Of a stretch of 45,681 nt of DNA, positions 1-15,186 are shown in pieces. Numbering within the stretch: the first letter of the stretch is position 1; each line of letters begins with the position of its first letter. Where the stretch lies: NCBI GenBank assembly GCA_018302545.1, contig JAGVZM010000006.1, positions 1-45,681 on the forward strand. Reading direction: 5' to 3'. The translations under genes and the position numbers were made by a program. This stretch comes from Candidatus Woesearchaeota archaeon. GTDB lineage: Archaea > Nanobdellota > Nanobdellia > SCGC-AAA011-G17 > GW2011-AR18. The notes below the pieces were generated by a model. That model saw nothing but the letters and a program-made list of their open reading frames with translations. It was not told the DNA's origin and did no database searches.

Positions 1-1277
1 CTTTTTATTTTTATATGTTTCTCTAATAGTTCTTTGGTATAATCTATTGTGTTTAGTGTGCTATGTGAAGTTTGCCTGTTTATTATTTCTTTTGTATATT
101 TTTTAAATGCTATTTTTTCCAAAAATATGTTTACATATTTTCTTTGCTTAAATTCTACAATATATTGTTTGTGTTTTCCTTTTCCTCTTGGTTCTCTTTC
201 ATATAATTTAGAAACAATTCCAATGTTTAAAAATAAATACATTAAGTCATTGGCTAATCCTTTTGATATCGTTCCTGCTGCAATCCTGTTTCCACTGTAT
301 TCCTTGGAGGTTTGAGACCCATCTCCATCAAAATATCCCTTTAAATATTCACAAATTTTTTCTTCCGATAAACTAAAAATTATTGAAGGTATTCGCTTAT
401 CAATGGCGGTTCTGCCGCAACCTATTTTTTTTAATGTAAGTGCTAATATTTTGTTTTTTATAGCTATTTGTGTAGAAAATCCTAATCCTTTTGTTTGTCT
501 TATGTATGGATTAATATTAAATAATTTTTTTGATAAACTAATCATATCCTCTTTTATCTTAGGGTTATCATTTGAAAAAACAACGCTTCCTGTATTTTCT
601 GTCCATCCTTCAGATGCATAATAACCTAAAAACCTACAAAAATCTTTACTTATTTCAAGGTTTACAGATAAAGTTTTGCTAGTTCCTTTTTTAATTTGTA
701 ATGTTTCTAAGTTTAGATTTTGATTTGCTTCAATTGTAAGTTTTTTATAAGAATTTATTGGAAGATTTGTATGTTGTTTTCCTTTTCTTAAATATTGATA
801 GATATCATTACTACAATCACATATTTCAGAAGCTTTTTTCCATCCTATTTTTTTTATTATTTGTTTTAAATCTTCTTCATAACCTTCTATTCTACAGTCT
901 TCATCTTTTAATAGCTCTAATAAATCTATATGTGTTGGTCCATTCTTAATTGTTGGTAACTTTTCAGGGATAATTATTTTATTTCCAATCTTTAATTCTT
1001 GACACTCGATTGGTAAAATTTTAAAATTCTTATGTGTGAATAAACTATGATCTGGTGTCACAGTTATTTTTCTACCCGTTCTTGTAATTACTTCCAATAG
1101 TTTTGTTCTTTGTGGATGTTTAACTAAAGCTATTAATTTTTTAAGTTTAAATTTCAAATCAAAGTCCATGGAGGGTATGTAAATCTTAGATAGGTCTTTT
1201 CCTTCTAAATCTTGTATTCTTACTCTTTTCATTATTCCACTTTCTGTGATTAAAACCTCTTCATTACCTCTAATTGA
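1..1277 (-). other. Intein 2 (partial, at least 425 aa, LAGLIDADG endonuclease) in the same ATPase
   Basis: Starts at residue 1070, just after extein GEVRS, with block A SIRGNEEVLI. Block B is VTPDHSLF (1047-1058). LAGLIDADG helices read FLGYYASEGW (near 605-635) and LKGYFDGDG (near 318-345). The splice-terminal blocks F and G lie beyond the left edge, so the C-junction cannot be checked. The uninterrupted family usually has Thr after GEVRS, so a Thr or Ser +1 residue is expected. The exact N-junction could be one residue earlier because two serines are adjacent, but block A spacing favours Ser 1070. Confidence 0.85.
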
Positions 1278-4200
1278 GCTTCTAACTTCTCCCACAATTA
1301 AAGCAGAATCTCCCATTCTTAAAGAAGTTCTTATTCCTTCGTCTGCTCCTAATTCAGATCCTGATTTTAATAAAGCGGATCTAACCTTCATTGGTTGAAT
1401 ATCATAACCTAATTTTGCTAATGGTTCTACTGGAATCTCTCTTGTATTATGAGCAACTACCCCTCCAGTTATAAAACTTTCATCTCCTGGAATGGATAAA
1501 TCGTAAACATAATCTTCAAAATCTTTTATTATTTCAATTGATCTTACTTGATCCCAATATAAATCTGATTTAGCTAAATTTTGTAAATTTTCTATTAATT
1601 TATTTTGTAATTTTGTTTGTTGTAACAGATTTCCTAGTTTTTCTCTACCTAAATTATTATTTCTTAAGATATAATCTCTGTAGTTAAAATTTGTTAAAAT
1701 TTGTTTAATCTCTTTTCTATCTTCTAAAACTAAAGGAATCACATCTCCTGAATCATGGGTTGAATTTTTTGAGCATAATTTTTCTAAAGATTTTAATTTG
1801 TAGTTTGGTAGAAATCCAACATTCTGTTCAAATAACCTGCAAAACTTAAGAGTACTTATTGAAGAAGGGTATGTTTTATCGCTTTCTCTAAATTTTCCTA
1901 TTCTTAAAATTATTCCTAAATTGAATAATAGGTTTTGTATGTCCTCTAATAATTTTCTTGAAGATAGGCTCATTGTTATTTCAGACTTAGCTACATGACC
2001 ATCTCCACTATACATCCCTTTTAAAACTTGAGAAATTTGCTTTTTAGATAGATTAAACATCCAGTTTGGAATTCTTTTTGTATAAGCATTTCCCCTTAAT
2101 TCGAAAACTTTTATCATTATCTCTTTTAATGTTTTTGAGTTTAACATCAAAGAAAATCCATCAGAGTGCATTTTTACATTAAAATTATATTTATTTGCAA
2201 GTTCATAAGCAAATTCTCTATTTTCTTCTTCAACAACTGATAGAAGAACCGAATTTTTGTCATAACACCCATCAGCTATCCATAATCCAAAGAAAGTTAG
2301 TAAATTATCATCTAACTTTAGTTTAATTGGTAATGCACCTCCATGATTGCCATGTTTGAATTTTGCATTTTCCAATGAAGAAGTATCATAACCTAAACAG
2401 GCCATATCTTTTATTATTTTTATTGGAATTATGCCTTCTCTAATCCACCTACACCTTAAAGATCTATTGTGTTTATGTTCTTTGCCTAATTGATGTATTT
2501 CAAATTTATTATTTTTTAAGAATTCTTTAACACAATCTCCAAAAATGTAACCGTTATCAAATTTTTCTAAATGGTCTAATAGAGATATTTCTTTTATTTC
2601 ATTTAAGTTTTCTGGTATTTTTCTTGTTGTTGCTATGAAATCTTTTTCTTTTATTTCATTTACTTTTATTTCTGAAATTTCTGCATTTTCTCTTAATCCA
2701 AACAACGAATGATCTCCTGTTACTTTTATTACTTTCCCCGTTCTTGTTGTTATTTTATAAATTGGTTTCTTTACTTTGTGTCTAATTAATTTTGTTGGTT
2801 TTGACCATTTTATTTTTCCTTTTTTATCCATGGAAAGAATTTCTATATTTTCATTGTTGCCAGATACTTCATGATTTGATAAAGAATACCAAAGACTATA
2901 AGTATCTAGATTATGGTCAACTAATTTCCCAATAGTTGTTCTTTCTATTTTATTTGCTTTTTTTATTAAAATCTCGGAATCTCCTGTTACACTATCTTCA
3001 ATTACAATTATTCTATATTTCCTCATAATCTCTACTAAAACAGAACCAATTAGACTAGTTTTACCTGATCCTCTAGTTCCAGCTATGAGTAAAGTTCTGG
3101 AACCATCAATAATAAAACTTAGTAGACCTGCTGCTAAATCATTAATCATACCACTTTTAATAAATAAAGGTAATGTCCAAGGTTTGTCTCTATGTCTTCT
3201 TATAGAAAATGCTAAGCCTGTTGGATTTAATGGTCTAGAGATTATAGCTACTCTTGCTCTTGCTTCTGGCAAGGTTAATTCTGTATCCAAAACTGGATTT
3301 GCTTCATCTAAAGGCCTAGCAGATATTAACCTAAATTTTGATGCCCAACTTTCAACATCTTCAGCTGAAGGAACTATGTTGGTTATACATTCATCATATT
3401 TTCCATGAACTAAAAAGATAGGTGTTGCTCCTGCAGGAGAATTTATTGCTATATCTTGAACTTCTGGGTCTAACAATAATGATTCTATTAAACCAAAACC
3501 AACAGTATACCTAACTAATATTTGTGCTAATTCTTCTATTTCTTTATACTCTAAAGGAATTCTTTTATGTTCTGATAATTCTGTTATTAAATCTCTGCCA
3601 ATATTAAAAAATGTCGTTCTCATTTTTTCTGGATCAATAAACTCTTCTGCTTTTGGTTGATGCTCTGCTAATACTTTTCTTGCTAATTCTAAAAGCTCGT
3701 ATTTATCTTCAGTTAATTGAAATTCTGGGGGGGTTATGTGATAAAGCGGTTTTATAGTATCTTTTGTGTTAAAAATTTGTATGTGTGTATTTTTATTTAA
3801 GGTGTAAGCATCAATTTCTTCTCCATCTAATGGGGGAGTAGCTGCTAATCTAGTATACATAAAATCTGGAGTTATTGTTGGATGGAATATTTGTTTATAC
3901 AAAGATCTTGATTCAATTTCGTATCCATCAATTTGATCTTTTACATTTTGAATTAGTTTTGTATTATATAGTAAAGAGTATATCTCTGTTAAGATAGATA
4001 AATAGGGTTGAACTTGTGTTTTATATTCTTCTGGAGGATTGTTTGATAAATTAATTTTTTCTTCTCTTATTAATCTTTTAGTTTCTACAAATGCTCCGAC
4101 AGGATCTGTTCTTAATAAATTTAGAACAACATATTGTAAACTTTGTATTCTTGAACTTACATCAGGCAATGGCCCGAAAACTTCTAAGGCTGCTTGTGTT

Positions 4201-4484
4201 AGAATACTTTTTTGTTTTATAAAGTGATTATATATTTGTGCAATTTCTAGGAGCATCTGTGTTTGATTGTATCCATATTCATATTTTTTCTTTTGATGAA
4301 AGGTTATTCTAGATACAGAGGGGGTTTGAGATAATTTTTCTACTATTGAAGACATTACTAATGCATCATCTTCTATAGAAGGAATTTTAGGATAAGATTC
4401 GTAATTTATGTGCATTATTTCTTCTGCACCTTCTTTTAGTACTTCATGCTCTCCTGGTTTTGTCTTTTTTTTGAATAATACCAT
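1..4484 (-). CDS. Type II/IV secretion (VirB11/archaellum-type) ATPase with two inteins, 3' end off the window
   Basis: Open in one frame from ATG at 4484 to the left edge (1494 complete codons, no stop). The N-extein (residues 1-497) has a helical N-terminal region and then the RecA-like core, with a Walker A GTRGSGKT around residues 468-476 (near 3060) and an Asp-box strand ending IVIED. After intein 1 the extein resumes with TREIPVEPLAKLGYDIQ and runs 56 residues through the Walker B-type strand ALIVGEVRS, where intein 2 begins. The family consists of hexameric cytoplasmic ATPases that power type IV pilus, archaellum or type II secretion assembly. FlaI/ArlI-like, PilB/TadA-like or KlbA-like cannot be told apart here. 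It is divergent from two coiled-coil genes that may belong to the same machine. The rest of the ATPase lies outside the window. The family call is confident, the subtype is not. Confidence 0.88.
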   Translation of the reverse strand, partial: MVLFKKKTKPGEHEVLKEGAEEIMHINYESYPKIPSIEDDALVMSSIVEKLSQTPSVSRITFHQKKKYEYGYNQTQMLLEIAQIYNHFIKQKSILTQAALEVFGPLPDVSSRIQSLQYVVLNLLRTDPVGAFVETKRLIREEKINLSNNPPEEYKTQVQPYLSILTEIYSLLYNTKLIQNVKDQIDGYEIESRSLYKQIFHPTITPDFMYTRLAATPPLDGEEIDAYTLNKNTHIQIFNTKDTIKPLYHITPPEFQLTEDKYELLELARKVLAEHQPKAEEFIDPEKMRTTFFNIGRDLITELSEHKRIPLEYKEIEELAQILVRYTVGFGLIESLLLDPEVQDIAINSPAGATPIFLVHGKYDECITNIVPSAEDVESWASKFRLISARPLDEANPVLDTELTLPEARARVAIISRPLNPTGLAFSIRRHRDKPWTLPLFIKSGMINDLAAGLLSFIIDGSRTLLIAGTRGSGKTSLIGSVLVEIMRKYRIIVIEDSVTGDSEILIKKANKIERTTIGKLVDHNLDTYSLWYSLSNHEVSGNNENIEILSMDKKGKIKWSKPTKLIRHKVKKPIYKITTRTGKVIKVTGDHSLFGLRENAEISEIKVNEIKEKDFIATTRKIPENLNEIKEISLLDHLEKFDNGYIFGDCVKEFLKNNKFEIHQLGKEHKHNRSLRCRWIREGIIPIKIIKDMACLGYDTSSLENAKFKHGNHGGALPIKLKLDDNLLTFFGLWIADGCYDKNSVLLSVVEEENREFAYELANKYNFNVKMHSDGFSLMLNSKTLKEIMIKVFELRGNAYTKRIPNWMFNLSKKQISQVLKGMYSGDGHVAKSEITMSLSSRKLLEDIQNLLFNLGIILRIGKFRESDKTYPSSISTLKFCRLFEQNVGFLPNYKLKSLEKLCSKNSTHDSGDVIPLVLEDRKEIKQILTNFNYRDYILRNNNLGREKLGNLLQQTKLQNKLIENLQNLAKSDLYWDQVRSIEIIKDFEDYVYDLSIPGDESFITGGVVAHNTREIPVEPLAKLGYDIQPMKVRSALLKSGSELGADEGIRTSLRMGDSALIVGEVRSSIRGNEEVLITESGIMKRVRIQDLEGKDLSKIYIPSMDFDLKFKLKKLIALVKHPQRTKLLEVITRTGRKITVTPDHSLFTHKNFKILPIECQELKIGNKIIIPEKLPTIKNGPTHIDLLELLKDEDCRIEGYEEDLKQIIKKIGWKKASEICDCSNDIYQYLRKGKQHTNLPINSYKKLTIEANQNLNLETLQIKKGTSKTLSVNLEISKDFCRFLGYYASEGWTENTGSVVFSNDNPKIKEDMISLSKKLFNINPYIRQTKGLGFSTQIAIKNKILALTLKKIGCGRTAIDKRIPSIIFSLSEEKICEYLKGYFDGDGSQTSKEYSGNRIAAGTISKGLANDLMYLFLNIGIVSKLYEREPRGKGKHKQYIVEFKQRKYVNIFLEKIAFKKYTKEIINRQTSHSTLNTIDYTKELLEKHIKIK
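1446..2993 (-). other. Intein 1 (complete, 516 aa, LAGLIDADG endonuclease) in the secretion ATPase
   Basis: Residues 498-1013 of the ATPase reading. Block A starts with Ser1 (SVTGDSEILI) directly after extein IVIED. Block B is VTGDHSLF (2709-2720). The two LAGLIDADG helices read FFGLWIADG (near 2270-2295) and GMYSGDG (near 1998-2016), both with acidic residues kept. Block F/G reads YDLSIPGDESF then GGVVAHN, ending in His-Asn with Thr as the +1 extein residue. Removing it rejoins IED to TREIPVE, the expected uninterrupted family sequence. All splice-junction residues are present, so it is probably splicing-competent with a possibly active homing endonuclease. Activity itself is inferred. Confidence 0.9.
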
Positions 4485-5502: not shown

Positions 5503-6048
5503 TTATACTTTGTCTACCAATAATTTAATTGAAATTGCAGCAATAACTAATATAATTAAAGCACCTAGGACTCTTGGGTGAACTATTGTAGAGATTACTT
5601 GAGACCTAACGTCCTGTGCTCCTCTTTCTACACTATCTCCAGAAGAAGTATCCTCATCAAAGGGAGTAACTTCAGGTTCGAATACTACAACTAAACCAAT
5701 TAATATTACAATTAAAATAACTACATAAATTGTAATATGACCCCCAATAGTAGTCCAGATCTCCTCATTTTTTAGTCCTAACCAAGAATACATCCCAAAT
5801 ATAATAGCTAATATAAGTATTACAAATACTAGCCAAGGAGTAATTGCTGCCACTACTAAAGTTAGTTTTCCTGCAAATACTGCAACAGCAGCTATACAAA
5901 CTGCTGCTAAAAAGTTTAAGGCTGCAGTTTTTTCATCTCCAAATAATTTTGTTTTAGTTAATAGAGAATATATTATTACAAAGATTAATAAAAAAACAAA
6001 GATTGGAGTGATAAGAGATAATAAAGAGGTGTCTAAAACGGTTGCCAT
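5503..6048 (-). CDS. Membrane protein, third of three tandem paralogues
   Basis: 181 residues with five or so hydrophobic segments. The N-terminal half shares the pattern of its two upstream neighbours: a short amphipathic start, a helix FVFLLIFVIIYSLLTKTKLFG, and a following helical pair. A charged acidic loop (about residues 125-145, EPEVTPFDEDTSSGDS) precedes a last C-terminal helix. GGAGG lies 10 bases before the ATG, inside the end of the upstream gene, so translation is coupled in an operon. No known enzyme or transporter motif is visible. Most likely a DPANN-specific membrane protein. Confidence 0.7.
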   Translation of the reverse strand: MATVLDTSLLSLITPIFVFLLIFVIIYSLLTKTKLFGDEKTAALNFLAAVCIAAVAVFAGKLTLVVAAITPWLVFVILILAIIFGMYSWLGLKNEEIWTTIGGHITIYVVILIVILIGLVVVFEPEVTPFDEDTSSGDSVERGAQDVRSQVISTIVHPRVLGALIILVIAAISIKLLVDKV

Positions 6049-6603
6049 TTATTTTCCTCCAAACTCCTTTGCTAATTTTTCAAGGAAACTTTCAGTTTTT
6101 GGTTTATCTGGATTTTTGGTTACAACTCCAATTACAATTAATAGGATAACTAGAGGAACCCCTATAGCAATTATGGCTTCTTTATCTTGGGAAGTTAGTC
6201 CTAATCCCCCAAATGGAGAAGGCGATGCTGTTAATGCATAGATAATAGCAATTATTATAAAAATCACAGCTACTCCTAATACATTCCCTTTTAAGCCTGA
6301 GAATTCTTTTCCTGCAAGCATAGCAATCAATAAAAGACCCATTAATACCACAACCATAATCATCGCTACTCTTGGAAGGAATAGATTAAGCAACTCTACA
6401 AGTTCAGTTTGCACTACTATTAGAAGACCTACTACTGTAGAAACAATTACATTAATGTTTGTTTTTCCTTGACCAAATATCTGAGTTTTTTCTAGTATCG
6501 CAAAGACTATTGAGAATATAAGTAAGAAAGGTAATAATACATCGAATACTCCTATGTCAACTAAATAGTCTATAGAGTTTCCAAGATTGAGTGAGGTTGC
6601 CAT
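6049..6603 (-). CDS. Membrane protein, second of three tandem paralogues
   Basis: 184 residues, about five hydrophobic segments. The conserved N-terminal pattern is VFDVLLPFLLIFSIVFAILE, then KTQIFGQGKTN, which closely matches the first paralogue. Its ATG overlaps the stop codon of the upstream gene by one base (TAATG), and a GGAGG lies about 13 bases upstream. The C-terminus ends in a short Lys/Glu-rich cytoplasmic tail. Function unknown; the three genes are presumably products of duplication and may form a hetero-oligomeric membrane complex (inference). Confidence 0.7.
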   Translation of the reverse strand: MATSLNLGNSIDYLVDIGVFDVLLPFLLIFSIVFAILEKTQIFGQGKTNINVIVSTVVGLLIVVQTELVELLNLFLPRVAMIMVVVLMGLLLIAMLAGKEFSGLKGNVLGVAVIFIIIAIIYALTASPSPFGGLGLTSQDKEAIIAIGVPLVILLIVIGVVTKNPDKPKTESFLEKLAKEFGGK

Positions 6604-7172
6604 TACTCTTTTTTTCCTCCTGATGTGCTTTTAGTTATATAATAAATTGCAAGTATTGCAACTAATAAAAATATGATAGACATTACAATTGGTCCTGAAA
6701 AGTTATTTATTACATAAGTTAAAAGATAATCTAACCAAGTTTGACCACTTTCTAAAGTTAGAGAATTTAATATAATTAAAATTAAGATGATCATCGAGAT
6801 TATAACAAAAGCAAGAGTAACTTTGGGATAATCTTCTTTGAATTTGAATTCTTTTGAGCCCATGAATATACCAATCATCATTAAGAAAGCTACAAATGCA
6901 ACAATGATTAGAACAACATTTGGAAGTGCTGAATTAATTGCTGAAACAACTTTGTTTGTTGCTACAACAAGCATTGCTATAACAAAAGCAACAATTGTGT
7001 TTAATTCTTTTTTTGGTGCTTCTTTATCTTCTCCTATTTTTTCTGTTCCTAAAATTTTTGTCTTTTCTAAGATAGCAAATATTAAGGCAAAGACCAATAG
7101 AAATGGCAAAACAACATCAAATAAACCAAACTCTCTTAGAAACTCGATTGCGTTTTGTAACGGAGTGGTCAT
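6603..7172 (-). CDS. Membrane protein, first of three tandem paralogues
   Basis: 189 residues. It shares with the next gene the pattern LFDVVLPFLLVFALIFAILE followed by KTKILGTEK, but here the loop after it is longer and charged (GEDKEAPKKELN). About five membrane segments follow, then a Lys-rich tail. It is the first gene of the minus-strand operon (7172 down to 5503) with overlapping or touching junctions. The start is ATG at 7172; TATA-like sequence (ATAGTAATTAT region, near 7190-7205) lies upstream. No functional motif is recognised. Confidence 0.7.
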   Translation of the reverse strand: MTTPLQNAIEFLREFGLFDVVLPFLLVFALIFAILEKTKILGTEKIGEDKEAPKKELNTIVAFVIAMLVVATNKVVSAINSALPNVVLIIVAFVAFLMMIGIFMGSKEFKFKEDYPKVTLAFVIISMIILILIILNSLTLESGQTWLDYLLTYVINNFSGPIVMSIIFLLVAILAIYYITKSTSGGKKE

Positions 7173-9606: not shown

Positions 9607-12600
9607 ATGATTAAAAGAAAAAATTGGTGTGATTTAATGGGTAATTTAAAATTAGGGATATTATCAATTTTAATTTTTGTTCTAATTCTAAACTTTGTTT
9701 ATGCTGAAAATTGTTATTTGAATGATGGAAATCAAAGTTCTTGTGAATCAGATTCTACTTGTTTCTGGGATTCTTTTGGAAATTGGTGTCAAGATAGGGG
9801 CTGTTGGAATTTATATGATCAGTCAGATTGTAGTAATTCCACAGAGATTTTAAATTTGAGTTGTAATTGGAGAACAGGAAATGCTAATTGGTGTCAGGCC
9901 GCAGATTGTTGGATTTATGATGGTACAGATGAAAATACTTGTGAAACAAATACTGCAGGATTAGCTTGTGAATGGAATGAAGAATGTCATGGTGGCCCTA
10001 ATTGCTGGAATATAGATAATCAGAATACTTGCCAAAGCACCTCTGGATGTAGTTGGGGTGGATGTTTTAGAAAAGGTTGTTGGGATTATGAAACTCAAAA
10101 TGAGTGTTCTGGACAGACAGGAATAGATGGAAGAGATTGTGCTTGGGATTCTTCAAGCAATCATTGTTATCAGCAAGGCTGTTCAGCATACACAAGTCAA
10201 TCTATATGTACAGATAATGGATGTGTTTGGGATAGAGGTTCTTGTATTGAAGGGGGCTGTTGGACTTATTCATTTACAAATCAATCAACATGTGAGGGAT
10301 CTGGTTTGAATTGTCAATGGAGCGATCCTTTTTGCCAAGAATTGGGATGTTGGAGTTTAGGTAATGAATCTAGTTGTCAAGCTTCTTCTGAAAATTGTCA
10401 ATGGGTTACAGATACAGGTGGTTGGTGCGAACAATTGGGTTGTTGGTCTTTTGATGGAACAGATAATGATACTTGTGAAAGCTCTGGTTTAGGGTGTGCT
10501 TGGAGTGATAATAATGATCCTATTAATTCTTGTGAGGCTATTGCAGAATCTTGTGGTGACCTTTCGGATACAGATCAGGATACTTGTGAACTATCAGGAT
10601 TGAACTGTAATTGGAATGATCCTGTATGTGAAGCTGTAAATTGTTCTGATTTTGATGGTACAGATGAAAATAGTTGTATTTCTGCAGGAAGTCTATGTAG
10701 TTGGAACGATCCACTTTGTATTCAATTTACTTGTGACCTTTTATCAGATACAGATCAGGCAACTTGTGAAGGTTTAGGAAATTTTGGACTTTATTGTGCA
10801 TGGGCTGATCCTTTATGTAATCCTGTAAATTGTGATGATTATAGTAATTCTGATCAAAATACTTGTGAATTTTATGGATGTAGTTGGGATCAAGAAGCTC
10901 CGGAAGGACCATCTGGGTGGTGCTATTATGATTGGAGCGCAGTAGATTGTAGTTCTATAACAAACCAAAAACAGTGTTATGATACTTACTATTGTTGGTG
11001 GGATTTAGGACAATCAACATGTCAAGAACCAGAATCTGATGTTGGATTTACAGCATGGAACCCTAGTTGTTATATTTTTAATAATAATCAAACTACTTGT
11101 GGTTTAGTTAATGGTTGTGAATGGGATGATGTAGAAAGTGAATGTACTGCTTCAGAAATTGATGTTGCTCTTAATGGTATTTCTTGTGAAAACGTTTCAG
11201 ATTCAAACTTATGTAATTCAATAAGTGTTTTATCCAACTGTTGTAGTTGGCAGGCAGGGAATTGTACTACAAATAGATTTAGTACTGCTTGTTGGGACAA
11301 TCAGCAAACTCCTCCTGAGGGAGCTAATTTTTGTGAAGATTGGGCAGCATATACTAGCCAGACGTTGTGTGAACAAATAGCAAATGATCCTTGGTATATG
11401 CCTTGTGTTTGGGATTCAAATTCACAAAGATGTAAGTTTAATGATGCTGCATTTGGTGGAAGTGTTAATTTTGATGATATAACTAATTTACAAGGTTGTG
11501 AGTTAGCTGGTGGAAGATGGATACAAGAATTTTATTGTAGTGGTGAAAATTCTATTCCAACAGGAAGATGTGAATATAAATTTGATGAAGAGACTAATTG
11601 TAATAGGGCTTGTCATGCATGTGAGAGCAGAACAGATGGTAGTGAGTGGGGAACATTAGGAAATGCCAAAGATGCATGTGAAAATTCTGATTTAGGTTAT
11701 TGTGAGTTCAAGCAAGATCCTAATGCTCCAAATAGTTTTGGTTGGTGTGATCCTAAAGCCGTTTTCTTAAGTGGAAGTGCAGGAAGTTGTGATAGTGATT
11801 GTCGTTCTTGTACATTTATAGGAAGTATAAATGAAGGTGGTCCTCAGGCAGCTTGTCAAGCAAGTTCTGCTAATTGTAGATGGCATACTGACCCATTAGA
11901 TTCTTCAAGAGGAGAATGTAGAAGTTCTGATGAAAAATCTTGTGAAGATGAATGCAGTAAATGTTATGAGCAAGAATCTTGTGTAAATTATGGGAAAGGT
12001 GGAGATGGTGTTTGTACTTGGGATACTTCTGGTGGATTCTGTAAAACTGCTGGAGGATCTGATGAAATATGTTATGATGGTAGTGATAATGATGGTGATG
12101 GATCTATAGACTGTGCTGATAATAATTGTTTGTTTGATCCTTTTTGTGGTTTTACAGATAGTGGTAATTGTTGGGGTTATTCTGACCAAAATAGTTGTGA
12201 GACTAATAACTGTGCTTGGCTTGTTGAATCTCACGGTGATAATGTTTACCAAGAATGTGCCCCTCCTGGTGCTGAATGTTGGCAATTAGATGGAAATCAG
12301 ACTGCTTGCGAGGAACGTGTTGGTGTTTGTGTTTATTTTGCTGGAGGAATTTGTGAGCCTCCTGAAGAGAATGCTCAATCTTGTTTTGCAGCAGGAAATC
12401 AAAGTTCTTGTGAAGCGATAAATGGATGTAATTGGAATGAAGATCCTTGGTGTTTAAGTCATCCTAATGATCCTGGATGCCAGACAAGTACAGGTTGGTG
12501 TGATTCTGCAGCATTTTCCTGTTGGATAAACACAAATGAAACATCTTGCACAAGTAATTCTTATTGCAGGTGGACTAATGATACTCATTCACCAACTGGT

Positions 12601-15186
12601 GGATGGTGTGATAATTCATGTTTTGCCTCTCATGATCAAAATTCGTGTGAAGGAACTGAAATTAGCTCAGGAGTTAATTGTGAGTGGGTTGGAGGATTAT
12701 GCGATCCTGCATTCATGCAATCTTTTGGAGGAAGTGCAGCAGGTTATGGTGTGGAGTGTTGGTTATTTGATGGTAATGAAACAAGTTGTGATTCTCAAGA
12801 AGGTTGTTCTTGGACGAATAATAATAATGCTTTCTGTGGAATTGATTTCACATATAATTGTTATCAATATGGAGATCAAGGTAGTTGTGATTTAAGTCCT
12901 GGTTGTAAATGGGCAGGTAGTTGGTGTGATGGTGCTGCAACAGAATGTGGTTGGAATCAGAGCTTACAGGCAGATCAAGCAACTTGCGAGAGTAATCCTC
13001 TATGTGGCTGGACAAATAATGGACAAGGTGGATGGTGTGATGCTATCTGTTTTGGTGCAAATAAAAATTCTTGCCAGTCCATTACAGGTTGTTTATGGAA
13101 TAATGGATTGTGTGAGGCAGAAGGAAATGCTAATTTCCATAATCAATTTGAAACAAGAGTTGGAGAGCCTGTTGATTTAGGAGATGATCCTACAGGAGAT
13201 TCTACTCAAGATCATGTAGATATAACTGGATGGGGATATGGGGATATGGGTAACCAATATGCATTTGGAATGCCTATGGTTGATATGAGTCAAGCAGCAT
13301 TATGTAAGGGGACAAATTTACCTACGGGTGTTGGTGTTGGAACTTCAACAGGAAAATATTATGTATATTTGGATACAGATGGTTCGACTACTGGAAATTG
13401 TGCAACTAAACATGATAATGAAAATGTTGGAAAAGAGTTCTTCTTTAGTATGAAATCTGAATTTGATAGTTCTACTGGAAAATCAAGGCAAACTTTTACG
13501 GCACAAAGATGTGTTGATGGTGCTTGGGGTGCAACAGATATAGTCTTAAGTACTTTAGAAAAATTTGCTTGTGAAGAAGTTGGAGGCGCAATTATAATAA
13601 TTGATAAAAAAGATTTAGAAAAGTATAATATTTATAATCCTAATGCTGTTATGGGAGTAGAAGTTGCTGCTGCTGATACAGATGGAAATGCTCAAACCCC
13701 AAGTGATACTGTTAGCGCTTCTGGATATGTTACTCCAGGTACTTCTGGATTTAGTTCTGAATGTTGTTGGACAAGGGGAGCTGATTGTAATTCAAATGGT
13801 CTTCCTTCAGAAATAGATCCTGAATGTTCTTCAATAAACAAGCAAGGATTTATCCAATTTGAAGATTGTTATACAAACACAGATAATAATGGAGATGGTT
13901 TAGCAGGATGCTTTGATTATTCTTGTTTAGATAATAATTATTGTGTTCAAAATCAACTAGGATTAAATGATCCTGATTATGTTGATACAACAACACCAAA
14001 GGTAGTAAATGTTAGAACAGAGGTGTATCCTGATTCAGCTTTAATAAGTTATGATACAAATAAACCTTCTTCTGGGCAATTGTTGTATTATGGTACTGAC
14101 TCTGCTTGTAGAACAAGTAATTTGGTTGCAACAGTTAATGATATAGGTTTGATAAGTAGTGATGTTAAAGATTATAAATTATGGCATGAAGGTTTAGTTT
14201 ATGATGATGATGGAGTTGACTCTTTAACAGACCCTTTAGCAGAATCCACAACTTATTATTATAAATTAAAAGTTTGCGATAGTGGTAATAGATGTGGTTC
14301 TTCAGCTTGTTCAAGTTTTACAACAACAAACATACAAGATTGTAAAGTTTGTAATTTTGTAACAAGGTTAAATGTTCCTACTGATTGGGAAGTTAGTTAT
14401 GATATTGATCAGGATGGTACTTTTGAAGTTCAGGGTGTAGAATGTAATAATCCTCAAGCAGGAGTTTTAACAACTTATTTAGAAGGTAGAAATGCTGATC
14501 TTAGATTAACAAATACTGAAAGCTCAAGTTATATTACATTTAGAAATGCTAGAATTACAAAGAGTGCATTAAATGAGAAAATTAAAACCTTGAATGGGGC
14601 AGGTTCAATAATCCAAGGTACATTGGAATCTGGAGCAGGTTATGCAGGTCTACCAAGTAGTACCAGAGATAAGATAATCAATACGCTACATCCACAAACT
14701 TGTGAGTTAAGAATACCTGGTGATGGAACTTGTGAGGAATTGTGGCATTGTGATGATAATCTAGAGAATTGTATTGATAGAACTGATGAATCTATTTTAT
14801 TGGAAACTGGTGAGGATTATTGTGAATGGCAGATTCCTTATTGTGAGTTCTCAACTTGGGCAGGTGGAGATCCATCTAGTGATCCTCCTTCGAACAACCC
14901 TTCTGGTAGTTCTTCTGCTGCATCTGGGGGAGGAGGAGGCAATACAGGAAGCCCCTCTAGAAATAATCCTCAAATAAATCAAGAATTAAGTGAATCAGGT
15001 GAGGCTTTTGAAGATAATTCAAAAATAGTTAATCAAGATAACAATCAACAAGAAAAGATAGACCAAACATCAGAGTTAGATAATAATTTAGAGGGAAAGT
15101 TTAACTTTGCTATGGTTCTTTTAATAATAGGTGTTTTGGTTTTAGGAAGTATCATAGTTTTCTTTGTTTTAAAAAATAAAAATTAA
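9607..15186 (+). CDS. Giant cysteine/tryptophan-repeat cell-surface protein
   Basis: 1859 residues. An N-terminal hydrophobic signal (about 14-33, ending NFVYA) precedes Cys36. Residues about 36-1170 are dozens of degenerate modules of about 25-40 residues. Each has four Cys and a CxW core: C(W)-x8-10-C-x6-12-CxW-x6-12-C. Fifteen can be followed back-to-back in residues 36-530. Asp-rich, probably calcium-binding loops occur near residue 825 (SDNDGDGSID) and near 1425 (TDNNGDG). A fibronectin-III-like domain spans about 1461-1574. A Ser/Gly/Pro linker (about 1752-1783) leads to a C-terminal helix (1834-1855) with a short KNKN tail. It is likely anchored in the membrane and exposed, with disulfide-stabilised modules. 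Function could be adhesion to a host or S-layer-like. ATG 9637 is an alternative start. Confidence 0.85.
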   Translation: MIKRKNWCDLMGNLKLGILSILIFVLILNFVYAENCYLNDGNQSSCESDSTCFWDSFGNWCQDRGCWNLYDQSDCSNSTEILNLSCNWRTGNANWCQAADCWIYDGTDENTCETNTAGLACEWNEECHGGPNCWNIDNQNTCQSTSGCSWGGCFRKGCWDYETQNECSGQTGIDGRDCAWDSSSNHCYQQGCSAYTSQSICTDNGCVWDRGSCIEGGCWTYSFTNQSTCEGSGLNCQWSDPFCQELGCWSLGNESSCQASSENCQWVTDTGGWCEQLGCWSFDGTDNDTCESSGLGCAWSDNNDPINSCEAIAESCGDLSDTDQDTCELSGLNCNWNDPVCEAVNCSDFDGTDENSCISAGSLCSWNDPLCIQFTCDLLSDTDQATCEGLGNFGLYCAWADPLCNPVNCDDYSNSDQNTCEFYGCSWDQEAPEGPSGWCYYDWSAVDCSSITNQKQCYDTYYCWWDLGQSTCQEPESDVGFTAWNPSCYIFNNNQTTCGLVNGCEWDDVESECTASEIDVALNGISCENVSDSNLCNSISVLSNCCSWQAGNCTTNRFSTACWDNQQTPPEGANFCEDWAAYTSQTLCEQIANDPWYMPCVWDSNSQRCKFNDAAFGGSVNFDDITNLQGCELAGGRWIQEFYCSGENSIPTGRCEYKFDEETNCNRACHACESRTDGSEWGTLGNAKDACENSDLGYCEFKQDPNAPNSFGWCDPKAVFLSGSAGSCDSDCRSCTFIGSINEGGPQAACQASSANCRWHTDPLDSSRGECRSSDEKSCEDECSKCYEQESCVNYGKGGDGVCTWDTSGGFCKTAGGSDEICYDGSDNDGDGSIDCADNNCLFDPFCGFTDSGNCWGYSDQNSCETNNCAWLVESHGDNVYQECAPPGAECWQLDGNQTACEERVGVCVYFAGGICEPPEENAQSCFAAGNQSSCEAINGCNWNEDPWCLSHPNDPGCQTSTGWCDSAAFSCWINTNETSCTSNSYCRWTNDTHSPTGGWCDNSCFASHDQNSCEGTEISSGVNCEWVGGLCDPAFMQSFGGSAAGYGVECWLFDGNETSCDSQEGCSWTNNNNAFCGIDFTYNCYQYGDQGSCDLSPGCKWAGSWCDGAATECGWNQSLQADQATCESNPLCGWTNNGQGGWCDAICFGANKNSCQSITGCLWNNGLCEAEGNANFHNQFETRVGEPVDLGDDPTGDSTQDHVDITGWGYGDMGNQYAFGMPMVDMSQAALCKGTNLPTGVGVGTSTGKYYVYLDTDGSTTGNCATKHDNENVGKEFFFSMKSEFDSSTGKSRQTFTAQRCVDGAWGATDIVLSTLEKFACEEVGGAIIIIDKKDLEKYNIYNPNAVMGVEVAAADTDGNAQTPSDTVSASGYVTPGTSGFSSECCWTRGADCNSNGLPSEIDPECSSINKQGFIQFEDCYTNTDNNGDGLAGCFDYSCLDNNYCVQNQLGLNDPDYVDTTTPKVVNVRTEVYPDSALISYDTNKPSSGQLLYYGTDSACRTSNLVATVNDIGLISSDVKDYKLWHEGLVYDDDGVDSLTDPLAESTTYYYKLKVCDSGNRCGSSACSSFTTTNIQDCKVCNFVTRLNVPTDWEVSYDIDQDGTFEVQGVECNNPQAGVLTTYLEGRNADLRLTNTESSSYITFRNARITKSALNEKIKTLNGAGSIIQGTLESGAGYAGLPSSTRDKIINTLHPQTCELRIPGDGTCEELWHCDDNLENCIDRTDESILLETGEDYCEWQIPYCEFSTWAGGDPSSDPPSNNPSGSSSAASGGGGGNTGSPSRNNPQINQELSESGEAFEDNSKIVNQDNNQQEKIDQTSELDNNLEGKFNFAMVLLIIGVLVLGSIIVFFVLKNKN

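Follow-up and report, generated by a model that had tools for sequence, protein, structure and literature searches.

A full-length class-1 intein in a T2SSE-family ATPase of a Woesearchaeota archaeon belongs to an apparently mobile intein family present at one site in three paralogous ATPases

The window, a stretch of 45,681 nt that makes up the whole of contig C29 in a 30-contig, 1.16-Mb genome, carries on its minus strand a frame of 1494 codons without a stop (3-4484) that continues past the contig edge. The frame encodes a PilT/VirB11-like (T2SSE) ATPase, named ATP1 here, and the question raised by the locus is what interrupts the core of this enzyme. The first-pass annotation had placed a complete 516-aa intein at 1446-2993, at the Asp-box position of a secretion ATPase, and had suggested that a motor dependent on protein splicing could be conditionally controlled. 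The intein itself was borne out to the exact base by the Pfam and NCBIfam matches, the structural model and the empty sites described below, whereas its role as a control element was not.

Intein 1 (site A; residues 498-1013; 1446-2993, minus strand) comprises a class-1 Hint splicing domain and a LAGLIDADG endonuclease, and is inserted after ...RKYRIIVIED and before Thr+1, at what we take to be the Asp box of the ATPase core, downstream of the Walker A motif. All of the residues named in the first-pass annotation can be read on the minus strand: Ser1, the N-terminal nucleophile (2991-2993); the block B TxxH, here T92-G-D-H95 (2709-2720); Asp241 in the first LAGLIDADG motif, GLWIADG (2271-2273); Asp331 in the second, GMYSGDG (2001-2003); penultimate His515 with terminal Asn516 (1446-1451); and Thr+1. 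Searches with Hint and endonuclease domain models, which had been proposed as a check, gave matches over the cut-offs for Pfam Intein_splicing (E 3.7e-40, two stretches) and LAGLIDADG_3 (PF14528; E 2e-30, three stretches), with both inteins of the frame counted together in each case, as well as for NCBIfam TIGR01445 intein_Nterm (70.3 bits; cut-off 24.5) and TIGR01443 intein_Cterm at 992-1014 (22.6 bits; cut-off 15.6). Ser1, TxxH and the terminal HN are present in 21/21 site-A inteins, and Thr+1 in all 13 occupied rows of the ATP1 alignment. The second LAGLIDADG motif is likewise found in 21/21 and the first in 20/21, the exception being the shortened, 466-aa intein of G070 ATP2. These intact residues and model matches identify intein 1 as a full-length class-1 intein with a predicted LAGLIDADG homing endonuclease, apparently competent for splicing.

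An AlphaFold2 model of intein 1 built from 16 sequences reached a mean pLDDT of 91.2 and a pTM of 0.90. Its best relative in the PDB is PI-PkoII (2cw7; Foldseek E 5e-30, Z 33.0, rmsd 3.2, 450 aligned), an intein endonuclease of Thermococcus kodakarensis, followed by the VMA inteins 7qsu, 7qss and 7qst (Z 28.6-31.1) and PI-PfuI (Z 24.9). Many intein structures match the model at Z over 16, which places it in the Hint fold, and its region 224-414 matches I-Tsp061I at Z 16.9. PI-PkoII resembles intein 1 as a full-length archaeal intein with both Hint and LAGLIDADG parts, but its host gene and site are different and identity is 19-22%. The Hint domain of the Mja KlbA intein (MJ0781; PDB 2jmz), whose host we take to be another T2SSE-family archaeal ATPase, matches the model at Z 19.4. 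KlbA inteins are described in the accessible part of one report as class 2, with Ala1, Ser at G:6 and Cys+1 (PMC4031507). A KlbA-type class-2 intein is ruled out here by Ser1, His515 and Thr+1, which intein 1 combines with an endonuclease; in addition, the +1 residue is Cys in KlbA, while each of the five sites considered here has Thr or Ser.

The assignment of the host to the T2SSE family is supported by a Pfam match (PF00437; 30.1 bits, cut-off 24.9). The N-extein (497 aa; 2994-4484, minus strand) contains the N-terminal domain and the Walker A motif GTRGSGKT and extends to IIVIED, and the middle extein (56 aa; 1278-1445, minus strand) starts at Thr+1, residue 1014, and runs from TREIPVEPL to LIVGEVRS. 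When joined over two contigs, the ATP1 extein is 763 aa long, as is the intein-free orthologue G005 of the same family, to which it is 80% identical over 1-763. ATP1 was matched in 358/371 genomes of a phylum sample, and named close relatives, GW2011_AR18 and Candidatus Woesearchaeota genomes, have the same gene, inteins included. The description of ATP1 as a secretion motor fared less well. Family-specific models match far under their cut-offs, and TIGR03819, searched against an intein-free ATP1 orthologue, gave E 2e-36, which is under the model's own cut-off. No T2SSF/TadC-type platform gene was found beside ATP1, and the four T2SSF matches in the genome all lie on C19 and C20, where the genes adjoin two other ATPases. 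As a motor ATPase can be encoded away from its platform gene, the missing neighbour is still compatible with a motor role, and "secretion motor" stands as an unproven family label. Near ATP1, three consecutive ORFs of ~185 aa lie at 5503-7172 of the window and at 1509-3182 of L100; the window trio is hydrophobic by eye and has no Pfam match above cut-off. The window also holds an ORF of 1859 aa without a Pfam match (9607-15186).

A second, full-size intein had been missed by the first-pass annotation. Intein 2 begins at residue 1070, 56 residues downstream of intein 1, at GEVRS^TEA (site B), and its first 425 residues, starting SIRGNEEVLI, occupy 3-1277 on the minus strand up to the point where the contig ends. 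The remainder was located by searching the genome with the intein family; it lies at the end of C8 (G000:C8 29978-31693; L015, L028), where a C-terminal intein piece of 72 residues ending in GGFGGIMLHN is followed by TEALALYEAMRTGA..., the C-extein (TEALALYEAM...) with which the ATPase continues after GEVRS. Aligned to six complete site-B inteins (502-506 aa), the 425 and 72 residues extend from one end to the other at 50-67% identity and sum to 497 of ~505 residues, so that ~8 are missing. A naturally split intein was considered and rejected, as both pieces stop at contig ends and their lengths add up, which makes an assembly break the simpler reading. Intein 2 is only distantly related to intein 1.

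With both inteins in place, the ATP1 precursor would measure about 1784 residues (763 + 516 + ~505) and would pass through two splicing reactions to give the 763-residue ATPase. Intein 1 would be excised by the standard route of an acyl shift at Ser1, transesterification to Thr+1 and cyclisation of Asn516, after which ligation would join ...IIVIED to TREIP..., and intein 2 would also have to leave GEVRS^TEA before the ATPase could work. Intein 1 separates Walker A from the remainder of the nucleotide site, and intein 2 is inserted past Walker B, so an unspliced precursor would be expected to lack activity. At the DNA level, the endonuclease would cut intein-free alleles near the conserved IED^T, and repair would copy intein 1 by homing.

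Occupancy of these sites was followed across the order in a sample of 103 genomes, 95 of which have an ATP1 orthologue at E 1e-60 or better, by alignment to the joined extein; carriers were counted by hand from search and alignment. Inteins are carried by 24/95 orthologues. The other 71 have exact, in-frame empty sites and align straight through all three insertion sites, which rules out a normal domain of the ATPase family, the reading that the first-pass annotation had named as its own refutation. A continuous protein of ~760 aa is the norm among ATP1 orthologues. Among the empty orthologues, the frames of G033 and G054 are interrupted by a stop. G097 and G098, with identical inteins and near-identical exteins, are counted separately among the 24, as are four carriers that are absent from the 91-row extein table, G047 for a broken frame and G051, G096 and G102 for being cut by contig ends.

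Three sites are used. Site A, at IED^T, holds inteins of 514-521 aa in 14 genomes; site B, at GE[VI]RS^T beyond Walker B, holds inteins of 502-506 aa in 11 genomes; and site C, after the Walker A lysine at GTRGSGK^T, holds inteins of 691-707 aa with Cys1 in 4 genomes. Sites A and B are filled together in three genomes (the window's, G002 and G020), C and B in two, and A and C in none, and none of these co-occurrences among the 95 is significant (A,B 3/95, p 0.20; B,C 2/95, p 0.065; A,C 0/95). The window's family f1 alone (10 genomes, 9 with an orthologue) includes two A+B alleles, one C+B, one A, one B and four empty genes. At site B, where G002 was left undetermined in the +1 residue table, Thr at +1 goes with occupancy (7/7 vs 19/83; Fisher p 8.8e-5, kinship ignored), and this link was not significant in a tree-aware test. 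In two of the carriers the frame is interrupted around site B: L071 of G002 (GW2011_AR18) has a frameshift at ~3395-3411, with the start of the site-B intein and GEVRS absent, which is either a broken ATPase or an assembly error, and in L081 of G047 stops separate the two halves of an ATP1 frame with a site-B intein.

Site A is also occupied outside the window genome. In 12 further genomes of the order, with both junctions read, the intein interrupts the gene at this very codon boundary, and seven loci in four families elsewhere in the class all have an intein at ED^S...HN^T of ATP1. At E 1e-40 or better, the intein-1 query matches 32/371 genomes of the phylum sample, a count that includes paralogues and other hosts. 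Viral contigs yielded 18 loci with distant inteins only (22-37% identity) and no viral site-A carrier.

The history of the site-A inteins departs from that of their host gene. The ATPase tree holds family f1 together, with SH-aLRT of 98-99 on the relevant forks, whereas the intein tree splits it: the site-A intein of the window groups with inteins from two other families (G070, G071 and G074), and those of G002 and G004 group with G097/G098 of a third. Forcing the three f1 site-A inteins together, as the host-gene tree has them, was rejected (dlnL 71, p-AU 2.85e-6). This tree conflict, together with the empty sites, argues that the site-A inteins are a mobile, horizontally moving family. In addition, the endonuclease (DOD) region gave a dN/dS of ~0.10 (0.075/0.72) and 0.24 (0.272/1.13) in two close pairs only, with the dS of 1.13 in the second near saturation. 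In both pairs, the region thus appears to be conserved by purifying selection, which fits selfish homing.

Site-A inteins are also found in two further T2SSE-family ATPases, ATP2 (five full cases) and ATP3 (three cases), at exactly the equivalent IED^T. In a tree of 37 inteins and the intein-2 piece, all 21 site-A inteins form one clade (100/98), which stays at 100/99 when ten outgroup inteins of the order are added; the latter come from CDC48, RadA, SMC, TFB and another host gene, with hosts identified by eye from the adjoining protein sequence, and the outgroup tree holds 6/7 class-level loci and leaves out the G098 ATP1 intein. This single clade demonstrates, at the level of sequence, that the site-A inteins of ATP1, ATP2 and ATP3 share a common origin. 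An ancestral intein inherited vertically by the three paralogues, with many losses and no jumps between them, would also give each paralogue its own clade, as is seen within the tree. It is nevertheless unlikely. Between ATP1 and ATP2/ATP3, inteins are 38-44% identical (7 pairs) and exteins 23-31% (18 pairs) with one aligner, and yet within ATP1 the intein is less conserved than the extein in 73/78 pairs; the AU test also shows horizontal movement within ATP1. The greater likeness of the ATP1 inteins across paralogues makes movement after the divergence of ATP1 likelier than common descent. Between ATP2 and ATP3 the two measures hardly differ (inteins 38%, one pair; exteins 32-37%, 8 pairs). 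Mean identity over the central 27 nt of the target is only slightly lower between paralogues (0.63 for ATP1-ATP2 and 0.60 for ATP1-ATP3) than within ATP1 (0.67; 16 sites). As the ATP2 of the window genome has the same IEDTREL target and is empty there, and at two other ATP2 sites, homing across paralogues does not seem to be frequent. We infer that the intein entered site A of the paralogues through occasional homing from one paralogue to another, once ATP1 had split from ATP2/ATP3.

The explanation that best accounts for the observed anatomy, predicted fold, empty sites, patchy distribution and tree conflict is that intein 1 excises itself from ATP1 and spreads by homing, with paralogues reached by occasional cross-homing. 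We regard this as very probable, with splicing, DNA cutting and homing deduced from the sequences. It has to be weighed against the proposal that the inteins are kept as a post-translational switch, in which condition-responsive splicing at one or both sites would gate motor assembly. Both inteins interrupt the ATP-binding core, so that the precursor should be inactive, and conditional splicing occurs in other inteins according to the accessible parts of two reports (PMC5790916, PMC6195587). However, most relatives (71/95) have no intein, and the retention of endonuclease motifs in 20/21 site-A inteins, together with the tree conflict, speaks for continuing mobility rather than domestication. 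With intein-free orthologues in the majority and an endonuclease under apparent purifying selection, the conditional control put forward in the first-pass annotation finds no support, and a switch appears improbable. A more elaborate form, to which we give slightly less credence still, is a two-key lock in which the inteins at A and B must both leave before the ATP site of a near-universal DPANN motor exists, with differing splicing rates or conditions timing its assembly; if this were true, an originally selfish intein family would time motor assembly across three paralogous motors.

Self-excision and homing also account better for the insertion than a non-splicing domain or a dead intein fixed in the ATPase lineage. 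The native +1 residue is Thr, which is sometimes a slow splicing nucleophile, but with splicing residues intact in every site-A intein, precise empty sites in the majority and a continuous protein as the norm, this reading is very improbable. An assembly chimera or contamination, for which the 30 contigs and the break of ATP1 over two of them could be cited, has a negligible likelihood given a frame open through all its codons, the reuse of one codon boundary in the 12 other genomes and seven class-level loci, and the inteins in the copies of named relatives.

Class-1 LAGLIDADG inteins, double inteins in one gene and inteins in paralogues are already known kinds. In the accessible part of one study, haloarchaeal MCM-a/MCM-d are two neighbouring full-length inteins of a single ATPase gene, and resemble the ATP1 inteins in having several sites, patchy co-occurrence and one site at Walker A; the host there is a replicative helicase, and the effect of a neighbour on homing was measured, whereas the ATP1 inteins are known from sequence (PMC10643990). 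Inteins in the second subunit of eukaryote RNA polymerases also occur at conserved sites of paralogous genes, and, as far as the accessible text goes, generally differ in position and are not close relatives, unlike the one clade at an identical site in ATP1-3 (PMC1635734). No earlier description of the inteins reported here was found in the open-licence PMC literature, and the accessible text of a paper on archaeal type IV pili does not contain the terms intein, Woesearchaeota, DPANN or AR18 (PMC4858521). As far as that literature shows, three things are new: the ATPase gene as host, its three insertion sites, and one clade spanning three paralogues.

DPANN inteins have been little described; the accessible part of one survey table lists 2 DPANN genomes with 1 intein (PMC10643990). 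Here, one core ATPase is targeted at three sites, and one intein lineage is found at the same codon boundary in three paralogues, which provides naturally occurring empty, single and double alleles in which homing, paralogue crossing and interference between neighbouring inteins could be studied. It is also a warning for annotation, as frames of 1000-2000 aa for such ATPases can conceal an ordinary protein of ~500-760 aa.

Several further observations concern other inteins of these genomes. The window genome is intein-rich, with additional matches over the cut-off on C17, C23 (two genes) and C9 (L005, L007, L008, L010, L013, L016), the hosts of which are by eye a ribonucleotide reductase, MCM, a HerA-type ATPase and EF-2. 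ATP2 holds up to three inteins in one frame of 2046 aa, at LPDG^S, IED^T and FQAFA^SGHP (L098 in G005:C15; also L097, L095, L094). The inteins at ATP1 site B and ATP2 site E are sister groups (100/99) with different insertion motifs, which may reflect a move to a new site. Finally, the site-C intein L082, the only one in the outgroup tree, groups with the SMC inteins L154 and L156 (99/99), which by eye also come after a GSGK motif, and this grouping may represent a crossing between unrelated P-loop ATPases.
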